Shown: positions 10,933 through 35,652 of the stretch, in pieces
Layout: each line of letters begins with the position of its first letter
Numbering within the stretch: position 1 is the stretch's first letter
DNA from: Chloroflexota bacterium
Lineage (GTDB): Bacteria; Chloroflexota; Anaerolineae; UBA1429
Length of the DNA: 39,608 nt
Direction of reading: 5' to 3'
Assembly (NCBI GenBank): GCA_012841405.1
Contig: DUUT01000203.1
Span: forward strand, 1 to 39,608
Translations under genes and position numbers: made by a program
The notes under the pieces: generated by a model
Database searches by the model: none
Told to the model about the DNA's origin: nothing
What the model saw: the letters and a program-made list of their open reading frames with translations, nothing else

Positions 10933-11322
10933 GGGGATGACAGGCTTCGACAGGGAGGGCTGATCAGCGATTGCAGGCCGAGGTGCCTCACCCTCGTTAA
11001 TCAGGGGCAACACGATAAGTGCCAACAACACTTACGCTCCGGCTTATGCAATGGCCGCGTAAGCGGTCACTCTAAGCCACCGGTCGACAGAGTCGACCGC
11101 GTCCGCCTCCTGGCTTTGCCCGAGAGCCGGAGAACGGGCGTCGACTAATTCGGGATCCGGGGCGCGCGACGCCGATACCGCCGCCTCAAAGATGCATCGG
11201 CTGGTAGCCCGAGGACTCGGTCGGTCGAGGACCGGGCTATAAGAAAACAATGACCGACTATGCCTGTAGTATATCTCTGGTCGAACTTTCTGGACGCGGG
11301 TTCGATTCCCGCCATCTCCACC
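10933..11322 (+). ncRNA. ssrA: Transfer-messenger RNA (tmRNA)
   Basis: The 5' end GGGGATGACAGGCTTCGACA and the 3' end GGGTTCGATTCCCGCC followed by ATCTCC are the hallmark ends of a one-piece tmRNA. The acceptor stem pairs 10933-10939 (GGGGATG) with 11313-11319 (CATCTCC) with one G-U pair; the T-arm loop TTCGATT is at 11301-11307. Position 11320 is the discriminator A; the genome then reads CCT, so the final A of CCA must be added after transcription. The tag reading frame begins at GCC 11021. The middle contains several GC-rich pairing segments expected for the pseudoknots, for example 11086-11101. tmRNA rescues stalled ribosomes with SmpB. Confidence 0.97.
11021..11062 (+). other. tmRNA proteolysis-tag reading frame
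   Basis: From the resume codon GCC at 11021 the frame reads A-N-N-T-Y-A-P-A-Y-A-M-A-A and stops at TAA 11060-11062. The ending AMAA resembles the usual ALAA/AVAA degradation signal. The preceding CGATAAGT is the expected type of upstream positioning sequence. Confidence 0.88.
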
Positions 11323-28134: not shown

Positions 28135-28689
28135 TCACTCCCCTGCGGTTGGGGAGATGATGCCGAGCTCCTCCAACAGTGTCAGCACGCCCTCGACGTC
28201 ATTCCGCCGAAAGAGAGGGGCCTCTGCTGCATCCGCCTCCAGATCATCCGAGACGAGGGCCAGGAGCTGCCCCTCCGGCGTAATGCGTCCGTCGGCGGTC
28301 CACGCTTGGCGCGTCGTTACCTCGATCTTGGGCCCACGATGGCGCTTGAACCCCTCGATGATGGCAAGATCCATCCCCGCCGGCAGACGCGCGAGAAGCT
28401 CCTCAAGCTCTGCGTCATCGTCCCGTTCCTCGATCATGGCCACACGGCCCGGCGCCGAGATCATGACGACGCTGCTGCCAGCATGCCGGTAGCGCCAGGT
28501 GTCGGTACCCTCGCGATCGATGTCAAACTCGGAACGCGCGTGCTTGATGGTGGCCACCCGCATGCCACGCCGCTTGAGCACCTCGAGGAGCCGCTCAACA
28601 AACGCTGTCTTGCCGACGTTGTGCCAGCCCACCACCGAGATGGTGGTTATCCCTCCATTACCTGGCGCTGTCGAACTCTTGGTGTGCAA
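28135..28689 (-). CDS. mobB: Molybdopterin-guanine dinucleotide biosynthesis adaptor MobB
   Basis: A 184-residue P-loop GTP-binding protein that assists attachment of GMP to molybdopterin. The start is TTG 28689 with GGAGG nine bases upstream, inside the 3' end of the HPr-EI gene (32-base overlap). Motifs are the P-loop VVGWHNVGKTAFVERLL, ATIKHARSEFDIDREGTDTW, the RYRHAGSSVVMISAPGR segment and DLAIIEGFKRHRGPKIEV. It is the last gene of the phosphotransferase operon. No other molybdenum-cofactor gene is in the window, so its place behind a sugar transport system is unexpected. Confidence 0.93.
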   Translation of the reverse strand: MHTKSSTAPGNGGITTISVVGWHNVGKTAFVERLLEVLKRRGMRVATIKHARSEFDIDREGTDTWRYRHAGSSVVMISAPGRVAMIEERDDDAELEELLARLPAGMDLAIIEGFKRHRGPKIEVTTRQAWTADGRITPEGQLLALVSDDLEADAAEAPLFRRNDVEGVLTLLEELGIISPTAGE

Positions 28690-30682
28690 TGCTGCGTCCC
28701 TCCCAGCCCTCGGGCCAGTCTTTTATGGTGATGTCGCGCGATGCGAGATCCCGTCGCCAGCGCTCCAAACGCGCCAAGACCTCCCGCACATCCCTCATCC
28801 CTACCACGTCTCGTGCCACCCGGCGTACCTCGGCCCCATCCACCGCCTCCAAGGCCTGCCTCACGATCGGCACCCGATCCGGTGCGATGCTCAGACCATC
28901 CACGCCGATTCCCCACAGCAGCAGCGCGTCAGGAAGCTGCCCCGCTGCCTCACCGCACACCGTCACCGGCACGCCAGCGTCCCGCGCACGGCGCGTAACG
29001 TCTGCCACCAGGCGCAGAGCCACGGGCTGCAGCGTCGGCAGCACTACCACACTCCCACGTTCGCGGTTCCCACCAAACAAGAGCACCGCTAGATCGTTCG
29101 CGCCGATGGCAACCTCATTGGCGCCGGGCAGCAGTTCGGCGATATCCAGCGCCGCGGATGGCGTTTCCACCAACAAGCTCACACGCGTGGCGACGCCCAA
29201 CGCCCCCGCCACCTCGTGCCAGTGCCCCAGAATCGCTTCCCAATCAGCGCGCGTGGCGACCATGGGGACCATGATGGTCACCTCGCTCGCGACAGTGCTC
29301 GCCACGCGCGCCAGAGCACGCAGGTGGGGCACCGCCAGCGCTGGATACCGCGCGAGCAACCCCGCTCCGCGCCACCTTTGGCTGTCGATGCCGAACAGCG
29401 GCACGAGGTAGGGTGGCACCTTGTCGCCGCCGAGATCCGCCAGGCGCAGGGTCAGGCGCCGCCCACCACAGGCCATCGCCAGCTCGCGAAACGCCTGGTA
29501 CTGCTCTTCCTCATCCGGCGGCACATCGCGGCCCAAAAAGAGCCGTTCCGTACGGGTCAGGCCGATTCCTTTGGCCCCAGCATCCAGGGCGCGACGCACC
29601 TCATCCGGGGTGTCGGCGTTGGCCCACAGGATCGGGCCCTTCGCCTCGACGCGAGAGGGAGCTCGCCAACGCTCCACAGCCGCGTCCGTCACCTCCTCCA
29701 GGGCATCTGGGTCGATCACGAGCTGCCCACGCCCGCCATCGACGCGCACCAGCAGCCCCTCATCGACCTCTGCCGCCACCGTCGCCAGCATCTCTGCGTC
29801 AATGCCCACCACCATCGGCACGCGCAGGGCACGTGCAACCACTGTCGCGTGCGACTGCGCGCTGCCCAGGACCGTCGCCACTCCTGCGAGCTGCTCGCGC
29901 GGCCACTCGAGGAGCTCAGAGGGTGACACCTGGTAGCCGACGAGGACGATCGGGCCCTCGTATGGCGACTCCAGAGCATCCGGCTGGCGGTGCGTCAAGA
30001 TTCTGCCGACGCGGGTGCCAACATCCCGGAGCACCTCGCGCAACCCCTCGGTGGGACCATCCCCCGCAGTGGAGGGTAGCACCGGGCCGGGTTGCCGACT
30101 CGCCGCCCATACGGCAGCCTCGGCGCTCAGCCCTTGGTTACGGATACTGTCTTCCAGGAGTTCGACCCAGACGGCATTATCAAGGAGCGCGCGCTCGGCA
30201 TAGAGAACGCTACTCGCTTGGCCGATGGCGCGCGCTGCCCACACTTCCAGAGCCTCCAGCTGCGCCCGTGCCTCCGCCAGGGCCTGGTGGAGCCGGCGAA
30301 TCTCTGCCGCGTGATCCAGCCAGCCTCGCGTGACCAGCATCTCGCCGACATCGACGGCGATGACGCCCCGCCCGATGCCCACACCGGGCGCCACGCCCCT
30401 ACCACGATAGATCCTCTGCTGTCGCGAGGCGGTAAGCAGCGCCCGTACCTGCTCGAGCGCCGCCTCGGCCTCGTCGCCCTCCACCACGACGCGCACCCGG
30501 CCCCCGACACTCACACCCAGCCCAAGCAGCGAGACGAGACTCGTCGCATCGGCAGCACGATCACCATGGGTGATGGTGACACGTGCCCCCAGGCGCCGCA
30601 CTGCCTGGACGATGCGAGCCGCTGTGCGCGCATGAAGCCCGCCAGGTGCCGACACGGTGACCCATCGCTCCACCACGCTCAT
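28658..30682 (-). CDS. ptsI: HPr-Enzyme I fusion of the phosphotransferase system
   Basis: A 674-residue fusion of both general PTS proteins. Residues 1 to about 88 are an HPr domain with phospho-acceptor His17 in GGLHARTAARIV and a Ser48 at the position of regulatory Ser46. Residues about 92-660 are Enzyme I: N-terminal GVAPGVGIGRGV, phospho-His278 in GSAQSHATVVARAL, the PEP-binding LTRTERLFLGRDVPPDEEEQ and LADLGGDKVPPYL, VETPSAALDIAELLPG and the active-site Cys576 in VTVCGEAAG. In the dimer region the usual GTNDLxQYTxAxDR reads GANDLAVLLFGGNRER, a departure. It would take phosphate from PEP and pass it to IIA. It follows the IIC-IID gene by 12 bases. Confidence 0.94.
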   Translation of the reverse strand: MSVVERWVTVSAPGGLHARTAARIVQAVRRLGARVTITHGDRAADATSLVSLLGLGVSVGGRVRVVVEGDEAEAALEQVRALLTASRQQRIYRGRGVAPGVGIGRGVIAVDVGEMLVTRGWLDHAAEIRRLHQALAEARAQLEALEVWAARAIGQASSVLYAERALLDNAVWVELLEDSIRNQGLSAEAAVWAASRQPGPVLPSTAGDGPTEGLREVLRDVGTRVGRILTHRQPDALESPYEGPIVLVGYQVSPSELLEWPREQLAGVATVLGSAQSHATVVARALRVPMVVGIDAEMLATVAAEVDEGLLVRVDGGRGQLVIDPDALEEVTDAAVERWRAPSRVEAKGPILWANADTPDEVRRALDAGAKGIGLTRTERLFLGRDVPPDEEEQYQAFRELAMACGGRRLTLRLADLGGDKVPPYLVPLFGIDSQRWRGAGLLARYPALAVPHLRALARVASTVASEVTIMVPMVATRADWEAILGHWHEVAGALGVATRVSLLVETPSAALDIAELLPGANEVAIGANDLAVLLFGGNRERGSVVVLPTLQPVALRLVADVTRRARDAGVPVTVCGEAAGQLPDALLLWGIGVDGLSIAPDRVPIVRQALEAVDGAEVRRVARDVVGMRDVREVLARLERWRRDLASRDITIKDWPEGWEGRSIAHQEFDSAR

Positions 30683-30694
30683 TCGCCCCTTCGC

Positions 30695-32395
30695 TCACCA
30701 CCAGGGCCACAGCGCCCGCCACAGCGCCACAGCGAGGCCAATCCCATAGGCGGCGAGCGTGATCCGTCTCTGGCGCCCGCCCCAGTGCCGTAACGCCAAC
30801 AGCACCAGCACCAGTGCCACCGCCGGCAAGCCATACAGCGCCTGGTCTAAGAGGGAGGCTGTCGCCACCGCGTCGCCAGCTGTTACTGGTAGCAGCAATC
30901 CCGCCACGGGCCCCACCGTCAGAACGCCCAACACAATGGCACTGGCGCACTCGGCGCCCACTACCAGGCGTCGCCAGCCGGCACCACGCAGTACATCGAG
31001 CACCCCCGCAAGCCCACCGTGGTAGCCTCGCTGAAATGCCCACCCACTGACACCCCAAACCACAACCGCCATGACGAGGCAGTACGCGATGACACTGCGT
31101 CCTCCTACCACCGGGGCCGCCGCCACCGCCAGGGCCACAGCGAGCGTCCCTATCGCACCATGGATCACCGTGTCCCCGACGCCCGAGACCGGCCCTGTCA
31201 GCCGCGTACGCACTGCCTCTGTAGCGCTCGGCGTGCTGTTCTGTCGACGTGCCTCCTGGCGCGCCAGCACGCCAACAACCGCGGCGCCGAGGTTCGGCTC
31301 GACATTAAAGGGCGCGAGGTAGCGAACCAGCGCGCTCGCCAACTCGGAGCGGGTCGTATAGACGCGACGCAGCACCGGCGCGAGCGCATGCGCCAACGCG
31401 ACACCCTGCAAGCGTTCCTCGCTATAGCTGGCGTGGGAAAAGAACATCCAGGTGAGGAGACTCGCCCGGCGGTCTGCCGGACGTACGGCGCCGCTTTCCA
31501 CGGGCTCGCCGATTCTCTCGACGCGGCGAGCCCCCGCGGTAGGCGCTTCCCTTGTGATCCACGGCAGCACCATCGCCACCAGCGCTCCGAGCCCGCCGCC
31601 GAGGACCGCCATCTCGCGTCCCGTCGCGGTCAGAGCCGCGCCCGCCGCCACGAGGTAGCATGCCGCCGTTCGCCGCGTCCACACGAGAGCCAATCCGTTG
31701 GCTACTCCCATGGCCACAAGGAGCCGCCCCGTCAGGTCGAGGCCGGCGATGGCCCACTCTGGTGCCATGGCCGGTACGCCGCGAGCCGCCTGCGGAGCCA
31801 GATAGGCTACCGTCAGTGCCGGCACCCAAGCGAGCAGCACCAGCATCGCTTGAGGGATGAGCACGTTGCAGCGGGCAATCCCCCGCACATCGCCCCGCCG
31901 CGCATAGCGCATCGCTCGCCGCGCAGGAAGATTGCTCCAGCGCAGCCGCACACGGTATAGCCCGTATCCCAGCAGCCCAAGCGGAAGGCTCACCGCCAGT
32001 GACGCCGTGGAGCTCATGCCCGTCGTCAGAGCGATTGTCGTGCCCGCATAGCCTACGAGCGCCATATCCGTCGGCAGCGCTCCACCCGTGCCCAGGAACC
32101 CCAGAAAGGCGAGGTTCAGCACCGCTCCGACGCGTACACCCGCCTGCGGATCGCCCAGGATGACGCCAACGAGTGCCCCAGCGACGAGGGGGCGGTACAG
32201 CGTCCAGTACCCCAGCCCGGCTAACCACGCGCTCTGCGAGAGGTAGTAGCAGAGCCCGATGAGCGCCGCCGTCCCGAGGCTAACGAGGGGTCCGCCTCTG
32301 ATGGGAGTCGGTACGCTCTCTCTTGTGCTCAACAGCAGCAGGGCGATGATCAGGCCCAGCCCAATCGCCGCCCCCAACCAATCTAGTCTGCCCAC
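30695..32395 (-). CDS. PTS mannose-family IIC-IID fusion permease
   Basis: A 566-residue membrane protein from GTG 32395, which overlaps the end of the IIB gene by 13 bases; the frame is open to 32500, inside IIB. The N-terminal part (about 1-255) is a IIC domain with several hydrophobic helices (GPLVSLGTAALIGLCYYLSQ, GDPQAGVRVGAVLNLAFLGF). After a linker, residues about 300-566 are IID: FFSHASYSEERLQGVALAHA, YLAPFNVEPNLGAAVVGVLA and the family-defining GPVSGVGDTVIHGAIG. IIC and IID are usually separate proteins, so one fused chain is unusual. It would form the sugar channel. Substrate is not readable. Confidence 0.88.
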   Translation of the reverse strand: MGRLDWLGAAIGLGLIIALLLLSTRESVPTPIRGGPLVSLGTAALIGLCYYLSQSAWLAGLGYWTLYRPLVAGALVGVILGDPQAGVRVGAVLNLAFLGFLGTGGALPTDMALVGYAGTTIALTTGMSSTASLAVSLPLGLLGYGLYRVRLRWSNLPARRAMRYARRGDVRGIARCNVLIPQAMLVLLAWVPALTVAYLAPQAARGVPAMAPEWAIAGLDLTGRLLVAMGVANGLALVWTRRTAACYLVAAGAALTATGREMAVLGGGLGALVAMVLPWITREAPTAGARRVERIGEPVESGAVRPADRRASLLTWMFFSHASYSEERLQGVALAHALAPVLRRVYTTRSELASALVRYLAPFNVEPNLGAAVVGVLARQEARRQNSTPSATEAVRTRLTGPVSGVGDTVIHGAIGTLAVALAVAAAPVVGGRSVIAYCLVMAVVVWGVSGWAFQRGYHGGLAGVLDVLRGAGWRRLVVGAECASAIVLGVLTVGPVAGLLLPVTAGDAVATASLLDQALYGLPAVALVLVLLALRHWGGRQRRITLAAYGIGLAVALWRALWPWW

Positions 32396-32925
32396 TCGCG
32401 AGGCTGGCGCACCTTTGCCAGCGTCACGGCGCCGTCCGACGGCAGGGCCTGCAGTTCCACGTCCACTCCTGCCCGCTCCAGATATCGCAGCGCCTCCCAT
32501 TCTATCCGGCTCACACTCACCTGCTGGCCGATACGCGCACGATCCGGCGCCCCGCCCACGGCCCCCACATTCAGGCGTTCGTACTGAATTCCGCTATCGA
32601 ACAGCCGCCGTGCGCTCTGCGGATCGCGGACGAGCACGATGGTGCCATCGAGCGGCAGACGTCCATCCAGAAACGCCGACGCCGCCTCTCCGACGGCACC
32701 GACCCATATGTCGATCCCTGGCGGCTGAGCCGCTCGCAGGGCCGCTCTGCCGAGCTCGTCTCCAGCCAAGGTATCATCGGCGATAACAATGCGCTGTGGC
32801 CGTAACGCCCTCGCCCAGTTGAGGGTGACCTGCCCATGGAGAAAGCGGTCATCGACCCGCACCAGCGCGAGGCGCTCCCAGCGCAGCTCGGTATCCTCGT
32901 CCTCAGTTGGCATCGCTGTAACCAC
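32383..32925 (-). CDS. PTS mannose-family IIB component
   Basis: A 180-residue cytosolic phosphocarrier. GTG 32925 shares its first base with the stop of the IIA gene; ATG 32913 is an alternative. The phospho-acceptor His30 lies in the defining motif VRVDDRFLHGQVTLNWA, followed by RIVIADDTLAGDELGRAALR and LVRDPQSARRLFDSGIQYER and LNVGAVGGAPDRARIG. The C-terminal domain (EWEALRYLERAGVDVELQAL) matches the family. It passes phosphate from IIA to the sugar at the IIC-IID channel. The tight overlaps at both ends show that it is translated with its partners. Confidence 0.93.
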   Translation of the reverse strand: MVTAMPTEDEDTELRWERLALVRVDDRFLHGQVTLNWARALRPQRIVIADDTLAGDELGRAALRAAQPPGIDIWVGAVGEAASAFLDGRLPLDGTIVLVRDPQSARRLFDSGIQYERLNVGAVGGAPDRARIGQQVSVSRIEWEALRYLERAGVDVELQALPSDGAVTLAKVRQPREWAD

Positions 32926-33338
32926 TACAAGTCGTCACGCACGCTTTCCCGTACCTGTTGCAGGCCCACGGAGGCCACGTGGAGTGCCAGGTCCCTCGCG
33001 GTTGTATGGCCCTCACACGACAGCAACGCGTCGACGACCATCGCCAGGTTCACGCCGCTCACCACGACACATGCCTTTGGCCGCGGCAGCTCTTCGCTCA
33101 GCATTGAGGCCACACGGTGGGGTGTTCCTCCGAGGAGGTCTGTCAGCACCAGCCACTCGGCCGGAGCATCGTCTCCCGTCGTGAGCGAACTGAGGAGGCG
33201 CTCTCTGAACGCCTCCGGAGCCTCGTCGGTCCCCAGTTCGAGCGCATGGGCGTTGGGGCAGGCTCCGGCGATCAGTTCCGCCGTACTGAGTAGCGCGCTA
33301 GCAAGGTTTCCGTGTGAGACTACCACCACACCAACCAC
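32925..33338 (-). CDS. PTS mannose-family IIA component
   Basis: A 137-residue cytosolic phosphocarrier, first gene of the operon, starting at GTG 33338 with GGGAGG six bases upstream. His9 in VVVVSHGNLASALL is the phospho-acceptor. The family pattern continues with ELIAGACPNAHALEL, the TDLLGGTPHRVASMLS segment and VVVSGVNLAMVVDALL. It should receive phosphate from the HPr domain encoded two genes downstream and pass it to IIB. A DhaM-like role in dihydroxyacetone phosphorylation is less likely because IIB and IIC-IID genes are attached. Confidence 0.93.
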   Translation of the reverse strand: MVGVVVVSHGNLASALLSTAELIAGACPNAHALELGTDEAPEAFRERLLSSLTTGDDAPAEWLVLTDLLGGTPHRVASMLSEELPRPKACVVVSGVNLAMVVDALLSCEGHTTARDLALHVASVGLQQVRESVRDDL

Positions 33339-33382
33339 TGCGGACCTCCCTCACGATGCTCCGTCAGTCGTCACCACAATCG

Positions 33383-33411
33383 AGTATATGTGCGCCCTCA
33401 GAGGGTGTCAA
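33383..33411 (-). promoter_or_regulatory. Promoter of the PTS-mobB operon
   Basis: On the minus strand a perfect TTGACA (33411-33406) and TATACT (33388-33383) are spaced by 17 bases. Transcription should start near 33376, leaving a leader of about 38 bases before GTG 33338. Confidence 0.85.
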
Positions 33412-33508: not shown

Positions 33509-33601
33509 TACGCAATGACCGGCGCCCGCCGCGGACCGTTACGTAGCGCTGGTCGCTCGTCCACGCCGATGCCGCCCTTTGGGCGAGAACGTGAGCAGGT
33601 G

Positions 33602-34474
33602 ATGTCCAGCACCTCTGGGATTGATAGACAAACGACGCTTGACCAGCGTGAACAGCGCCTCCACGAGATCCTCGCACGCCTCGGGCGCGTGGCGGTCGCC
33701 TTCAGTGGCGGTGTCGATAGCAGCTATCTCTTGGCCGCCGCCGTCGACACCCTCGGCCGCGACCACGTCATCGCCCTGACGGCCGACTCGCCGCTGGTGC
33801 CCAACAGCGAGAGAGACACCGCAGTGGCGGTTGCCCGCCAGCTTGGGGCCGAGCATCGCCTCGTCCCTTTTGACGAGTTGGCCATCCCCGGAGTCGTCGA
33901 GAACTCGCCGCAACGCTGCTACTACTGCAAGCGGGCTCGCTTTGAGGCCCTGTACGCTCTGCTGCGCGACGCCGCATCGGATGGCGATGCCACCGAGGCC
34001 GTCCTCGTACACGGAGAGAATGTGGATGATGGCGATGACTTTCGGCCGGGCGCGGTGGCCGCGAGGGAGCTCGGCGTTCGTGCCCCCCTCGCAGAAGCGG
34101 GCTTGACCAAGGCCGACATCCGCACCCTCTCCCGGCGGCGCGGCCTGCCCACCTGGGACCATCCGGCGGCAGCGTGCCTCGCGTCGCGCTTTCCCTATGG
34201 CACGCCCATCACGCGCCAGGGTCTGGAGCGCGTCGAACGAGCCGAGAGCACTTTGCAGGCGCTGACAGGCTTGCGCCAGGTGCGGGTACGTGATCACTAT
34301 CCCGTTGCCCGCATCGAGGCGCCGCCCGATGCCATTGCCCGTCTGGCCGAGGACAACCTCCGGCGCCGTATCCATGACGCGCTGGTGGCAGCGGGCTATC
34401 GTTACATCACCCTGGACCTGCTTGGATACCGTATGGGGAGCCTCAATGAAGCAATCGAAGAGCCTGACCGATAG
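33602..34474 (+). CDS. larE: LarE-type ATP-dependent sulfur transferase (nickel-pincer cofactor synthesis)
   Basis: A 290-residue PP-loop enzyme. ATG 33602 lies downstream of the mapped promoter and fits the family length. The ATP pyrophosphatase motif FSGGVDSS (34-41) is intact, with TADSPLVPNSE, then ENSPQRCYYCKRARFEALY (Cys106, Cys109) and HPAAACLASRFPYGTPIT (Cys192). LarE adenylates the carboxylates of the pyridinium mononucleotide and replaces them with thio groups. In the lactobacillus enzyme one Cys in the ACLASR-type segment is sacrificed; here three conserved cysteines are present, as reported for iron-sulfur LarE proteins that can turn over. That assignment is inferred. larB follows with a 29-base overlap. 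Confidence 0.92.
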   Translation: MSSTSGIDRQTTLDQREQRLHEILARLGRVAVAFSGGVDSSYLLAAAVDTLGRDHVIALTADSPLVPNSERDTAVAVARQLGAEHRLVPFDELAIPGVVENSPQRCYYCKRARFEALYALLRDAASDGDATEAVLVHGENVDDGDDFRPGAVAARELGVRAPLAEAGLTKADIRTLSRRRGLPTWDHPAAACLASRFPYGTPITRQGLERVERAESTLQALTGLRQVRVRDHYPVARIEAPPDAIARLAEDNLRRRIHDALVAAGYRYITLDLLGYRMGSLNEAIEEPDR

Positions 34475-35177
34475 TCGCCACAGTGCCACCCCCTTTGCTC
34501 GGCCCGACTTTGGCCGGCAGCAGCGCAAGGGAGTGCCCGAGGTTATCCTGACGAACAGCAAGACCGCAGAGCAGTCGCTGGCCATTGCGCGTTCGTTTCT
34601 CGAGCGCACAGGTCGGGCGATTCTCAGCCGTGTCTCACCCGAGCTCGAGCAGGCTCTGTGCGAGGAGTATGGCCGCGACGGTTTCGAGTGGTACCCCGTC
34701 GCGCGTATGGCCATCATCCGCAGCAATGGCGCCGAGCCTACCGCCACCGACGGCCGCGTCGGTGTCATGACGGCGGGCACATCGGATCAGGCCATCGCTG
34801 AGGAAGCCGCCATCATCTGTCGCGAGATGGGCTGTACGGTGTACCCGGTGTACGATGTGGGCGTTGCCGGGCTTCACCGCCTGTTCGAGCCGCTGGAGGA
34901 ATACCTGGAGGCCTGCGTCGACGTAATCATTGTCGCCGCAGGTATGGATGGCGCCCTTCCATCGGTGGTCTCTGGGCTCGTCGACATCCCTGTCATCGGT
35001 CTCCCCACCTCCGTGGGCTACGGCATGGGCGGCCAAGGACAGGCGGCGCTCCTCTCCATGCTACAGACGTGCTCCCCGGGCCTGGCAGTGGTCAACATCG
35101 ACAACGGCGTGGGTGCCGCCGCCATCGCGGGCCTTATTGCCAACCGTGCGGCCCGCGCGCGCCGTGGAGAGAGGTAG
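34446..35177 (+). CDS. larB: LarB, pyridinium-3,5-biscarboxylic acid mononucleotide synthase
   Basis: A 243-residue enzyme that carboxylates and hydrolyses nicotinic acid adenine dinucleotide in the first step of nickel-pincer cofactor synthesis. ATG 34446 is within the end of larE. The N-terminal part (FARPDFGRQQRKGVPEVILT, LSRVSPELEQAL) and the PurE-like carboxylase domain (VGVMTAGTSDQAIAEEAAII, YDVGVAGLHRLFE, VAAGMDGALPSVVSGLVDIP, LPTSVGYGMGGQGQAALLSM and VVNIDNGVGAAAIAGLI) are clear. The length is normal. It is followed after one base by the larC fragment gene, so the three form one operon. Confidence 0.94.
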   Translation: MKQSKSLTDSRHSATPFARPDFGRQQRKGVPEVILTNSKTAEQSLAIARSFLERTGRAILSRVSPELEQALCEEYGRDGFEWYPVARMAIIRSNGAEPTATDGRVGVMTAGTSDQAIAEEAAIICREMGCTVYPVYDVGVAGLHRLFEPLEEYLEACVDVIIVAAGMDGALPSVVSGLVDIPVIGLPTSVGYGMGGQGQAALLSMLQTCSPGLAVVNIDNGVGAAAIAGLIANRAARARRGER

Positions 35178-35178
35178 C

Positions 35179-35652
35179 ATGCCTGCCGACGCTGGCCGCG
35201 AGAGCGCGCCCCAAGAGGTCGCCCTCCTGGAATGCAACCTCGATGACATGACCGGCGAGGCGCTCGCCTATGCGCTCGAGCGCCTGCTGGAGGCCGGGGC
35301 CCTCGATGCCTGGTTCACGCCCATCATCATGAAGAAGGGGCGCCCCGCCGTCACGCTCTCCGTTCTCTGCCGCACGCAGGACGCGCCGATGTTGCGCTGC
35401 CTCATCCTGCGCGAGACGAGCACCCTCGGCGTGCGTTGGCGCCTGATGCAGCGTGAGGTCGCCGAAAGAAGCACCGATCGTGTCGACACGCCCTGGGGGC
35501 CGGTACGCCGCAAACTCAAACACGTGGGTGGGCAGGTCGTGAGTGTCAAGCCGGAATATGAGGACTGCGCCCGCCTCGCGCGCGAGTTCGACGTCCCGCT
35601 GCAGGACGTCATCGATCACGCACGCGCCGTGCCCATCGACGCTGCCACCTGA
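35179..35652 (+). CDS. larC: LarC C-terminal half (LarC2-like) as a stand-alone protein
   Basis: A 157-residue protein from ATG 35179, one base after larB. It matches only the C-terminal domain of LarC, which inserts nickel into the pincer cofactor with CTP: LLECNLDDMTGEALAYALER, LLEAGALDAWFTPIIMKKGR, LILRETSTLGVRW, DTPWGPVRRKLKHVGG and VKPEYEDCARLAREFDVPLQ. Full LarC has about 400 residues; the N-terminal domain (LarC1), which carries a His-rich nickel-binding region, is missing and no frame upstream can supply it because larB fills that space. In Lactiplantibacillus LarC1 and LarC2 are joined by a ribosomal frameshift, so a split is precedented, but loss of LarC1 is not. LarC1 could be encoded elsewhere. 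Confidence 0.88.
   Translation: MPADAGRESAPQEVALLECNLDDMTGEALAYALERLLEAGALDAWFTPIIMKKGRPAVTLSVLCRTQDAPMLRCLILRETSTLGVRWRLMQREVAERSTDRVDTPWGPVRRKLKHVGGQVVSVKPEYEDCARLAREFDVPLQDVIDHARAVPIDAAT

Follow-up and report, generated by a model that had tools for sequence, protein, structure and literature searches.

The 39,608-nucleotide contig DUUT01000203.1 of a Chloroflexota bacterium (assembly GCA_012841405.1; Anaerolineae, UBA1429), analysed at its full length and here called the window, carries a locus for a predicted mannose-family sugar phosphotransferase system (PTS), a pathway powered by phosphoenolpyruvate (PEP). The minus strand holds, from 33411 to 28135, a promoter-like site and five genes for IIA, IIB, a IIC-IID fusion, a fusion of HPr with Enzyme I (EI), and MobB (Table 1). 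An initial annotation, made from the letters of the window and its open reading frames, had placed five genes at these positions, and Pfam domain matches confirm them; all five frames are open. The end coordinate that it gave, 33411, is the first base of the promoter-like TTGACA-17-TATACT site, and three such sites occur in the scanned region against a shuffle mean of 0.6. The junctions that it described (overlaps of 1 and 13 bases, a 12-base gap and a 32-base overlap) agree with the coordinates, but second plausible starts for IIB, the IIC-IID fusion and MobB make these figures uncertain.

Table 1. Features of the PTS locus (window coordinates) and the fifth genes of two related operons (coordinates of their own loci).
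Feature	Position	Strand	Evidence and remarks
Promoter-like site, sigma-70-type, TTGACA-17-TATACT (putative)	33383..33411	-	Upstream of IIA; 11/12 consensus matches
IIA, mannose-type phosphocarrier (EIIA-man)	32925..33338	-	Pfam PF03610, E 5e-18; GTG start
IIA His9 codon, predicted phospho-acceptor	33312..33314	-	Sequence
IIB, sorbose/mannose-type	32383..32925	-	Pfam PF03830 (PTSIIB_sorb), E 4e-36; start 32925 or 32913
IIB His30 codon (VDDRFLHGQ), predicted phospho-acceptor	32836..32838	-	Sequence
IIC-IID fusion permease, 566 aa	30695..32395	-	PF03609 (EII-Sor), 2e-40, and PF03613 (EIID-AGA), 8e-33, in a single ORF; start 32395 or 32377
Extra N-terminal hydrophobic helix (residues 2-24), ahead of the IIC domain	32324-32392	-	Low model confidence
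IIC half, residues about 40-280	31556..32278	-	Pfam, structure model
IID half, residues about 306-562	30710..31480	-	Pfam, structure model
HPr-EI fusion, 674 aa	28658..30682	-	PF00381 (HPr, 2e-20) and PF05524, PF00391, PF02896 (three EI domains) in a single ORF
HPr His17 codon (GGLHAR), predicted phospho-acceptor	30632..30634	-	Conserved in 7/7 HPr-EI clade rows of the alignment
EI His278 codon, predicted phospho-acceptor	29849..29851	-	Identical in 22/22 aligned rows
EI Cys576 codon (VCGEAAG)	28955..28957	-	Identical in 22/22 aligned rows
MobB	28135..28689	-	PF03205, E 2e-38; TTG start at 28689 overlaps the HPr-EI 3' end; other start 28635
GlmU-like + galactokinase-like large fusion proteins	L015 4058-6709; L016 4669-7140		Fifth PTS operon gene in G001 and G009

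The histidines that would carry phosphate (IIA His9, IIB His30, HPr His17 and EI His278) all lie where the initial annotation had located them; we take IIA His9 to be the phospho-acceptor from knowledge of the family. His30 and the motif around it are conserved in the IIBs of loci L014, L015, L016, L017 and L080. Residues H278, R377, R413, E506, N529, D530, R540 and C576 of EI are identical in all 22 aligned EI proteins, and the window EI also has the consensus residue at K421 and R438. The roles of these residues, including that of Cys576 as the catalytic cysteine, are presumably those familiar from the family. HPr, EI-N, phosphohistidine and PEP-binding domains are present along with the catalytic residues, as expected of an Enzyme I or multiphosphoryl transfer protein. 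The predicted model of the fusion (pLDDT 81.5, pTM 0.67) finds its best matches among EI structures, with a TMt of 0.47 to full-length EI, up to 0.86 to the PEP-binding domain and 0.93 to HPr. With all parts and active-site residues in one locus, the claim of a self-contained PTS stands.

Where the EI motif GTNDLxQYT, a putative dimer motif, is expected, the window reads GANDLAVLLFGG, as the initial annotation had reported. Four metagenome homologues with the same domains (P0024-P0027, 57-61% identical) read GTNDL and then a hydrophobic run similar to that of the window; within this HPr-EI clade the T-to-A change occurs in the window alone. The altered motif is mostly a clade trait. Inactivation of EI through this change is not supported, because the checked catalytic residues are intact. 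A tree of 135 EI sequences groups the host family's HPr-EI proteins with P0112 in a single clade of eight (support 0.998), separate from the other EIs of the class.

The predicted model of the IIC-IID fusion (pLDDT 89.3, pTM 0.89) matches the ManY and ManZ chains (6k1h_C, TMt 0.69; 6k1h_B, TMt 0.68), consistent with a ManYZ-type fold for the permease. Six metagenome relatives (P0002-P0007, 62-70% identical) carry the same fusion, and both domains are present in all 22 listed homologues, the window's own included. The search behind this list scored 7999 candidates of 0.55-1.75 times the query length, a range that excludes lone IIC or IID proteins; thus it shows that the fusion is real, not how common it is. 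Frequency was read instead from 396 genomes of the class. IID matches occur in 56 of them. Of the 70 match rows, among which some genes appear in more than one piece, 58 fall within open frames of at least 500 aa. We read the surroundings of 62 class loci with a simple gene caller written for this analysis (this set excludes seven rows that were not fetched and one that is the second piece of a fetched gene). IIC and IID are fused in 53, separate or partial in eight, and without a call in one. Among 43 named loci the fusion occurs in 13, with 29 unfused and one without a call; five of the 13 are class loci already counted, and the others are Coriobacteriales, Erysipelotrichales, Lachnospiraceae and Clostridium records. 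The fusion is the rule in this class, so the view that IIC and IID are normally separate does not hold among these relatives. No paper naming such a fusion was found in open-licence PubMed Central. N-terminal extensions like that of the window IIC were found in several relatives and are absent in L018 and L019. In a midpoint-rooted FastTree phylogeny of 112 IIC-IID sequences, the window clade adjoins sequences of family f4 (support 0.96), both on long branches, and we do not rely on this placement.

The same conservation bears on whether the fusions arose by sequencing or assembly error, or whether the contig is contamination. The window is the entire contig (C141) of a 238-contig genome that, by the assembly's own estimates, is 96% complete and 7.46% contaminated, and the latter figure gives contamination some room. 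However, both fusions recur in other assemblies, including the metagenome homologues and the class loci above. A conserved gene on the contig is 76-85% identical to its counterparts in 13 of the 14 other host-family genomes (two of them partial), versus at most 72% in other families; thus, the contig belongs to the host family. Genome G002, also of this family, has a weak match only to this gene. We therefore reject an assembly join or contamination, to which we give almost no credence, and the fusions noted initially are genuine.

The genome has a single HPr domain match, that of the window, and a single EIIA-man match, the window IIA; no match to HPr kinase (Hpr_kinase_C) was found in it. 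There are two PEP-utilizers_C matches, the window EI and a second one within a 1023-aa frame. The operon is likely the only PTS of the cell, as judged by a search that covered HPr, EIIA-man, PEP-utilizers_C and HPr kinase. Across 15 host-family genomes (77-99% complete), IIC-IID occurs in four, and HPr in exactly those four. HPr is present in 36 of the 52 other class genomes that have an IID match.

We consider it likely that the four genes form a dedicated, self-sufficient mannose-family PTS that holds all parts from PEP to one sugar, with no other HPr in the genome assembly. PEP would phosphorylate EI at His278, and the phosphate would move to His17 of the tethered HPr, within the chain or the dimer, and from there to IIA His9 and IIB His30. 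The IIC-IID fusion, predicted to be a ManYZ-type elevator, would admit the sugar, which IIB would phosphorylate. What we observed is the domain content, the active-site residues, the predicted folds, the conserved fusions, and the lack of other HPr, mannose-type IIA and HPr kinase matches in the assembly; the phosphotransfer and transport, as well as transcription as one operon, are inferred. The fusions would fix their subunits at a ratio of 1:1, and one small locus would supply a whole PTS.

Assignment to the mannose family (TC 4.A.6) follows from matches to EIIA-man, sorbose-type IIB, EII-Sor and EIID-AGA, all above Pfam gathering scores, and from the phospho-histidines present in IIA and IIB. 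Several observations weigh against the reading of a dedicated transporter, and they begin with this classification. The NCBIfam scores are below cut-offs (TIGR00824, 47.8 against 98.35 bits; TIGR00854, 98.0 against 163.6; TIGR00822, 82.1 against 339.85; TIGR00828, 69.4 against 292.75), and EI reaches 216 bits against the 341.7 of TIGR01417, as expected of a divergent EI. By fold and Pfam, the system is a predicted divergent member of the family. Scores below the curated cut-offs for ManX, ManZ, AgaF, AgaW and AgaE mean that it is not classed as a mannose or N-acetylgalactosamine (GalNAc) transporter. The operon also lacks a sugar-processing gene, in contrast to relatives in the class that have an aldolase and a zinc dehydrogenase (L075 and L080, Pfam-tested). 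Related EIs are altered as well. Those of G001 and G009 lack Lys421, and in the latter a further stretch with Arg438 is missing, losses that would count against full activity there; in G007, gene calls place the HPr-EI gene in two pieces. Finally, the IID of the window clade carries N325S, H359Y, Q412H and P417T in 7/7 sequences, at positions where other rows keep H359 (19/19), N325 (18/19), Q412 (17/19) and P417 (18/19). These four changes could reflect either a different specificity or a loss of transport. Being shared, fixed and at otherwise conserved positions, they seem to point to changed specificity more than to decay.

Some of these features would also fit a regulatory or sensory PTS, in which the phosphate chain reports PEP or sugar status via IIA and IIB, with transport secondary or lost. 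The operon has no catabolic genes, the genome has no HPr kinase match, and the window-clade IID is altered at the four positions just given. In two other families the IIC-IID fusion adjoins histidine-kinase genes (by Pfam, a PAS/GAF kinase in L017 and a HisKA_3 kinase in L018), and L080 has a histidine-kinase neighbour by sequence appearance only. We nevertheless regard this role as unlikely: a complete 566-aa permease is kept, with a confident ManYZ fold and six relatives 61-70% identical, and no kinase or regulator gene lies within the operon. Another idea is that the PTS is non-functional or in decay, as part of its loss from the lineage; this is prompted by its absence from 11 of the 15 host-family genomes (some incomplete), by the altered EIs of G009 and G001, and by the two-piece HPr-EI gene of G007. 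In the window, however, the frames are open and the checked EI residues, the phospho-histidines and a promoter-like site are all present, and metagenome proteins keep both fusions. We judge decay to be unlikely.

The initial annotation had left the substrate open, since no sugar-processing gene is present in the operon, and we found nothing there to change this. Hints come from host-family relatives. G007 encodes IIA, IIB, IIC-IID, HPr-EI and MobB, and has two weakly matching GH42-like genes divergent from the operon. G001 and G009 have the first four genes as in the window, and the fifth is a fusion of a GlmU-like nucleotidyltransferase with a galactokinase-like domain, both matches falling below NCBIfam cut-offs. 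A counterpart of this fusion was sought in the window genome, where there are seven NTP_transf_3 matches; six were compared, and none matched. The best NCBIfam matches of IIA (AgaF, 79 against a cut-off of 130) and IIC (AgaW, 99 against 300) are also below cut-off. This hint is mixed, as IIB and IID score higher on mannose-type than on Aga models, a further point to be counted against the proposed reading. From the neighbours in relatives and the sub-threshold Aga matches of IIA and IIC, we would hazard a weak guess that the substrate may be a galactose-type sugar.

One extension of the dedicated-transporter reading is that the system is a reduced, plug-in PTS, in which the two covalent fusions make a four-polypeptide relay that would run unaided from PEP to sugar where a lineage has no other PTS, free of HPr-kinase control. 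It would serve one purpose, for example the supply of a galactose-type sugar to nucleotide-sugar or envelope synthesis, and not general growth on sugars. This proposal is doubtful as it stands. More broadly, the locus suggests that a mannose-type PTS can be reduced to four proteins with tethered relay partners, encoded in one short locus that can be the only apparent PTS of a cell. It would be a compact object for testing whether a PTS is shielded from cross-talk when its HPr and EI are tethered.

The MobB gene that ends the operon recurs in part of the clade, as in G007, where it also comes after HPr-EI. MobB itself is ordinary. It passes the TIGR00176 equivalog cut-off (125.9 against 76.2 bits), and its role is likely the usual one because the genome also encodes a MobA homologue (one NTP_transf_3 match) and two Molydop_binding matches elsewhere. 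The EI tail of P0025 is readable in the MobB frame at 28 of 33 positions, versus at most 15 in 200 shuffles (run at the best start only), which would place MobB after HPr-EI there too; for P0024, P0026 and P0027 the tails did not exceed the shuffles in the same test. Mob genes are near six of the 62 class loci, all in two families (4/4 and 2/2) that are not sister in the IIC-IID tree. They lie on differing sides of the PTS genes; in L015 and L016 two divergent genes come in between. We found no mechanism by which MobB would be a functional partner of the PTS and, given the differing sides and the families that are not sister, do not retain this idea. Pterin-cofactor genes do recur near PTS loci: aldehyde ferredoxin oxidoreductase genes are near mannose-type PTS genes in L021 (12773-14578) and L022 (5743-7560), and MobA/MobB in two other families. 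Elsewhere in the window are genes for LarE, LarB and LarC2 of nickel pincer cofactor synthesis (33569-35652, plus strand), divergent from the PTS operon, and a tmRNA gene (10933-11322, plus strand) with the tag ANNTYAPAYAMAA.

Other loci of the class show different contexts for the permease. In family f4, IIA was identified in 0/30 loci and IIB in 8/30 (within four genes, same strand). Nine genomes of one genus (g52: G054, G129, G147, G212, G230, G257, G265, G322 and G347) have an IID match and neither HPr nor IIB matches genome-wide, and the same pattern occurs in two more f4 genomes, G164 and G191. The f4 loci of IIC-IID genes in these genomes are L102, L106-L111, L114, L117 and L119. G230 is assembled as one contig (4.7 Mb), the IIC-IID copy of G147 is interrupted, and the surroundings of the G322 match were not read. 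A metallo-beta-lactamase-fold gene is a neighbour in all three f4 loci that were Pfam-tested (L019, L098 and L107). In the eleven genomes without HPr and IIB matches, the IIC-IID may act as a permease that is uncoupled from PTS phosphorylation, and they would allow a test of whether such a permease works without it. In L121 (6374-11047), IIB and IIC-IID are downstream of genes for inositol-3-phosphate synthase and a CDP-alcohol phosphatidyltransferase (Pfam, NCBIfam), and L122, judged by similar gene sizes, has the same arrangement, which suggests an inositol-lipid link.

In the textbook state, as given in PMC6872149, a mannose-type PTS has four proteins, with IIC and IID separate. E. coli ManXYZ (TC 4.A.6.1.1; ManYZ structures 6k1h and 7dyr) shares with the window system the folds of IIC and IID, the families of IIA and IIB, and the phospho-histidines. 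According to the same paper (PMC6872149), however, its IIA and IIB are fused and its IIC and IID separate, whereas in the window IIA and IIB are separate, IIC and IID are fused, and the operon includes HPr-EI. The Aga (N-acetylgalactosamine/galactosamine) PTS supplies the best NCBIfam matches of IIA and IIC, but the window proteins score far below its cut-offs, mannose-type models are the better fit for IIB and IID, and the operon has no Aga catabolic genes. EI and HPr of E. coli are encoded apart from the ManXYZ locus.

The initial annotation had held that HPr and EI genes rarely share an operon with a sugar-specific system; they do recur near mannose-type permeases. Within four genes and on the same strand, HPr or EI is found in 9/62 class loci (four of them of the host family) and in 9/43 named loci (three of them host-family loci already counted among the class). 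Class and clostridial mannose-type operons (e.g., L075-L092, L143, L154, L157, L160, L161 and L163) have the same order of IIA, IIB, IIC and IID, fused or not. Some include HPr and EI, as separate genes and not fused as in the window, and some carry the DeoC/LacD-family aldolase and zinc dehydrogenase that the window lacks (L075 and L080 were the loci tested). An HPr-EI fusion in a PTS operon had also been published in 2008. As described in PMC2405797, the fused Mesorhizobium loti HPr-EI, like that of the window, lacks a IIA domain and shares its operon with a sugar-specific PTS transporter; that transporter is of the glucitol class, and the one in the window is of the mannose class. The combination present in the window was not found in the searches made of open-licence PubMed Central. 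Each element has a precedent: the IIC-IID fusion across the class, HPr and EI beside clostridial mannose-type permeases, and HPr-EI in Mesorhizobium loti. What is unusual is their combination, the distinct HPr-EI clade, and the four IID changes shared within the window clade.

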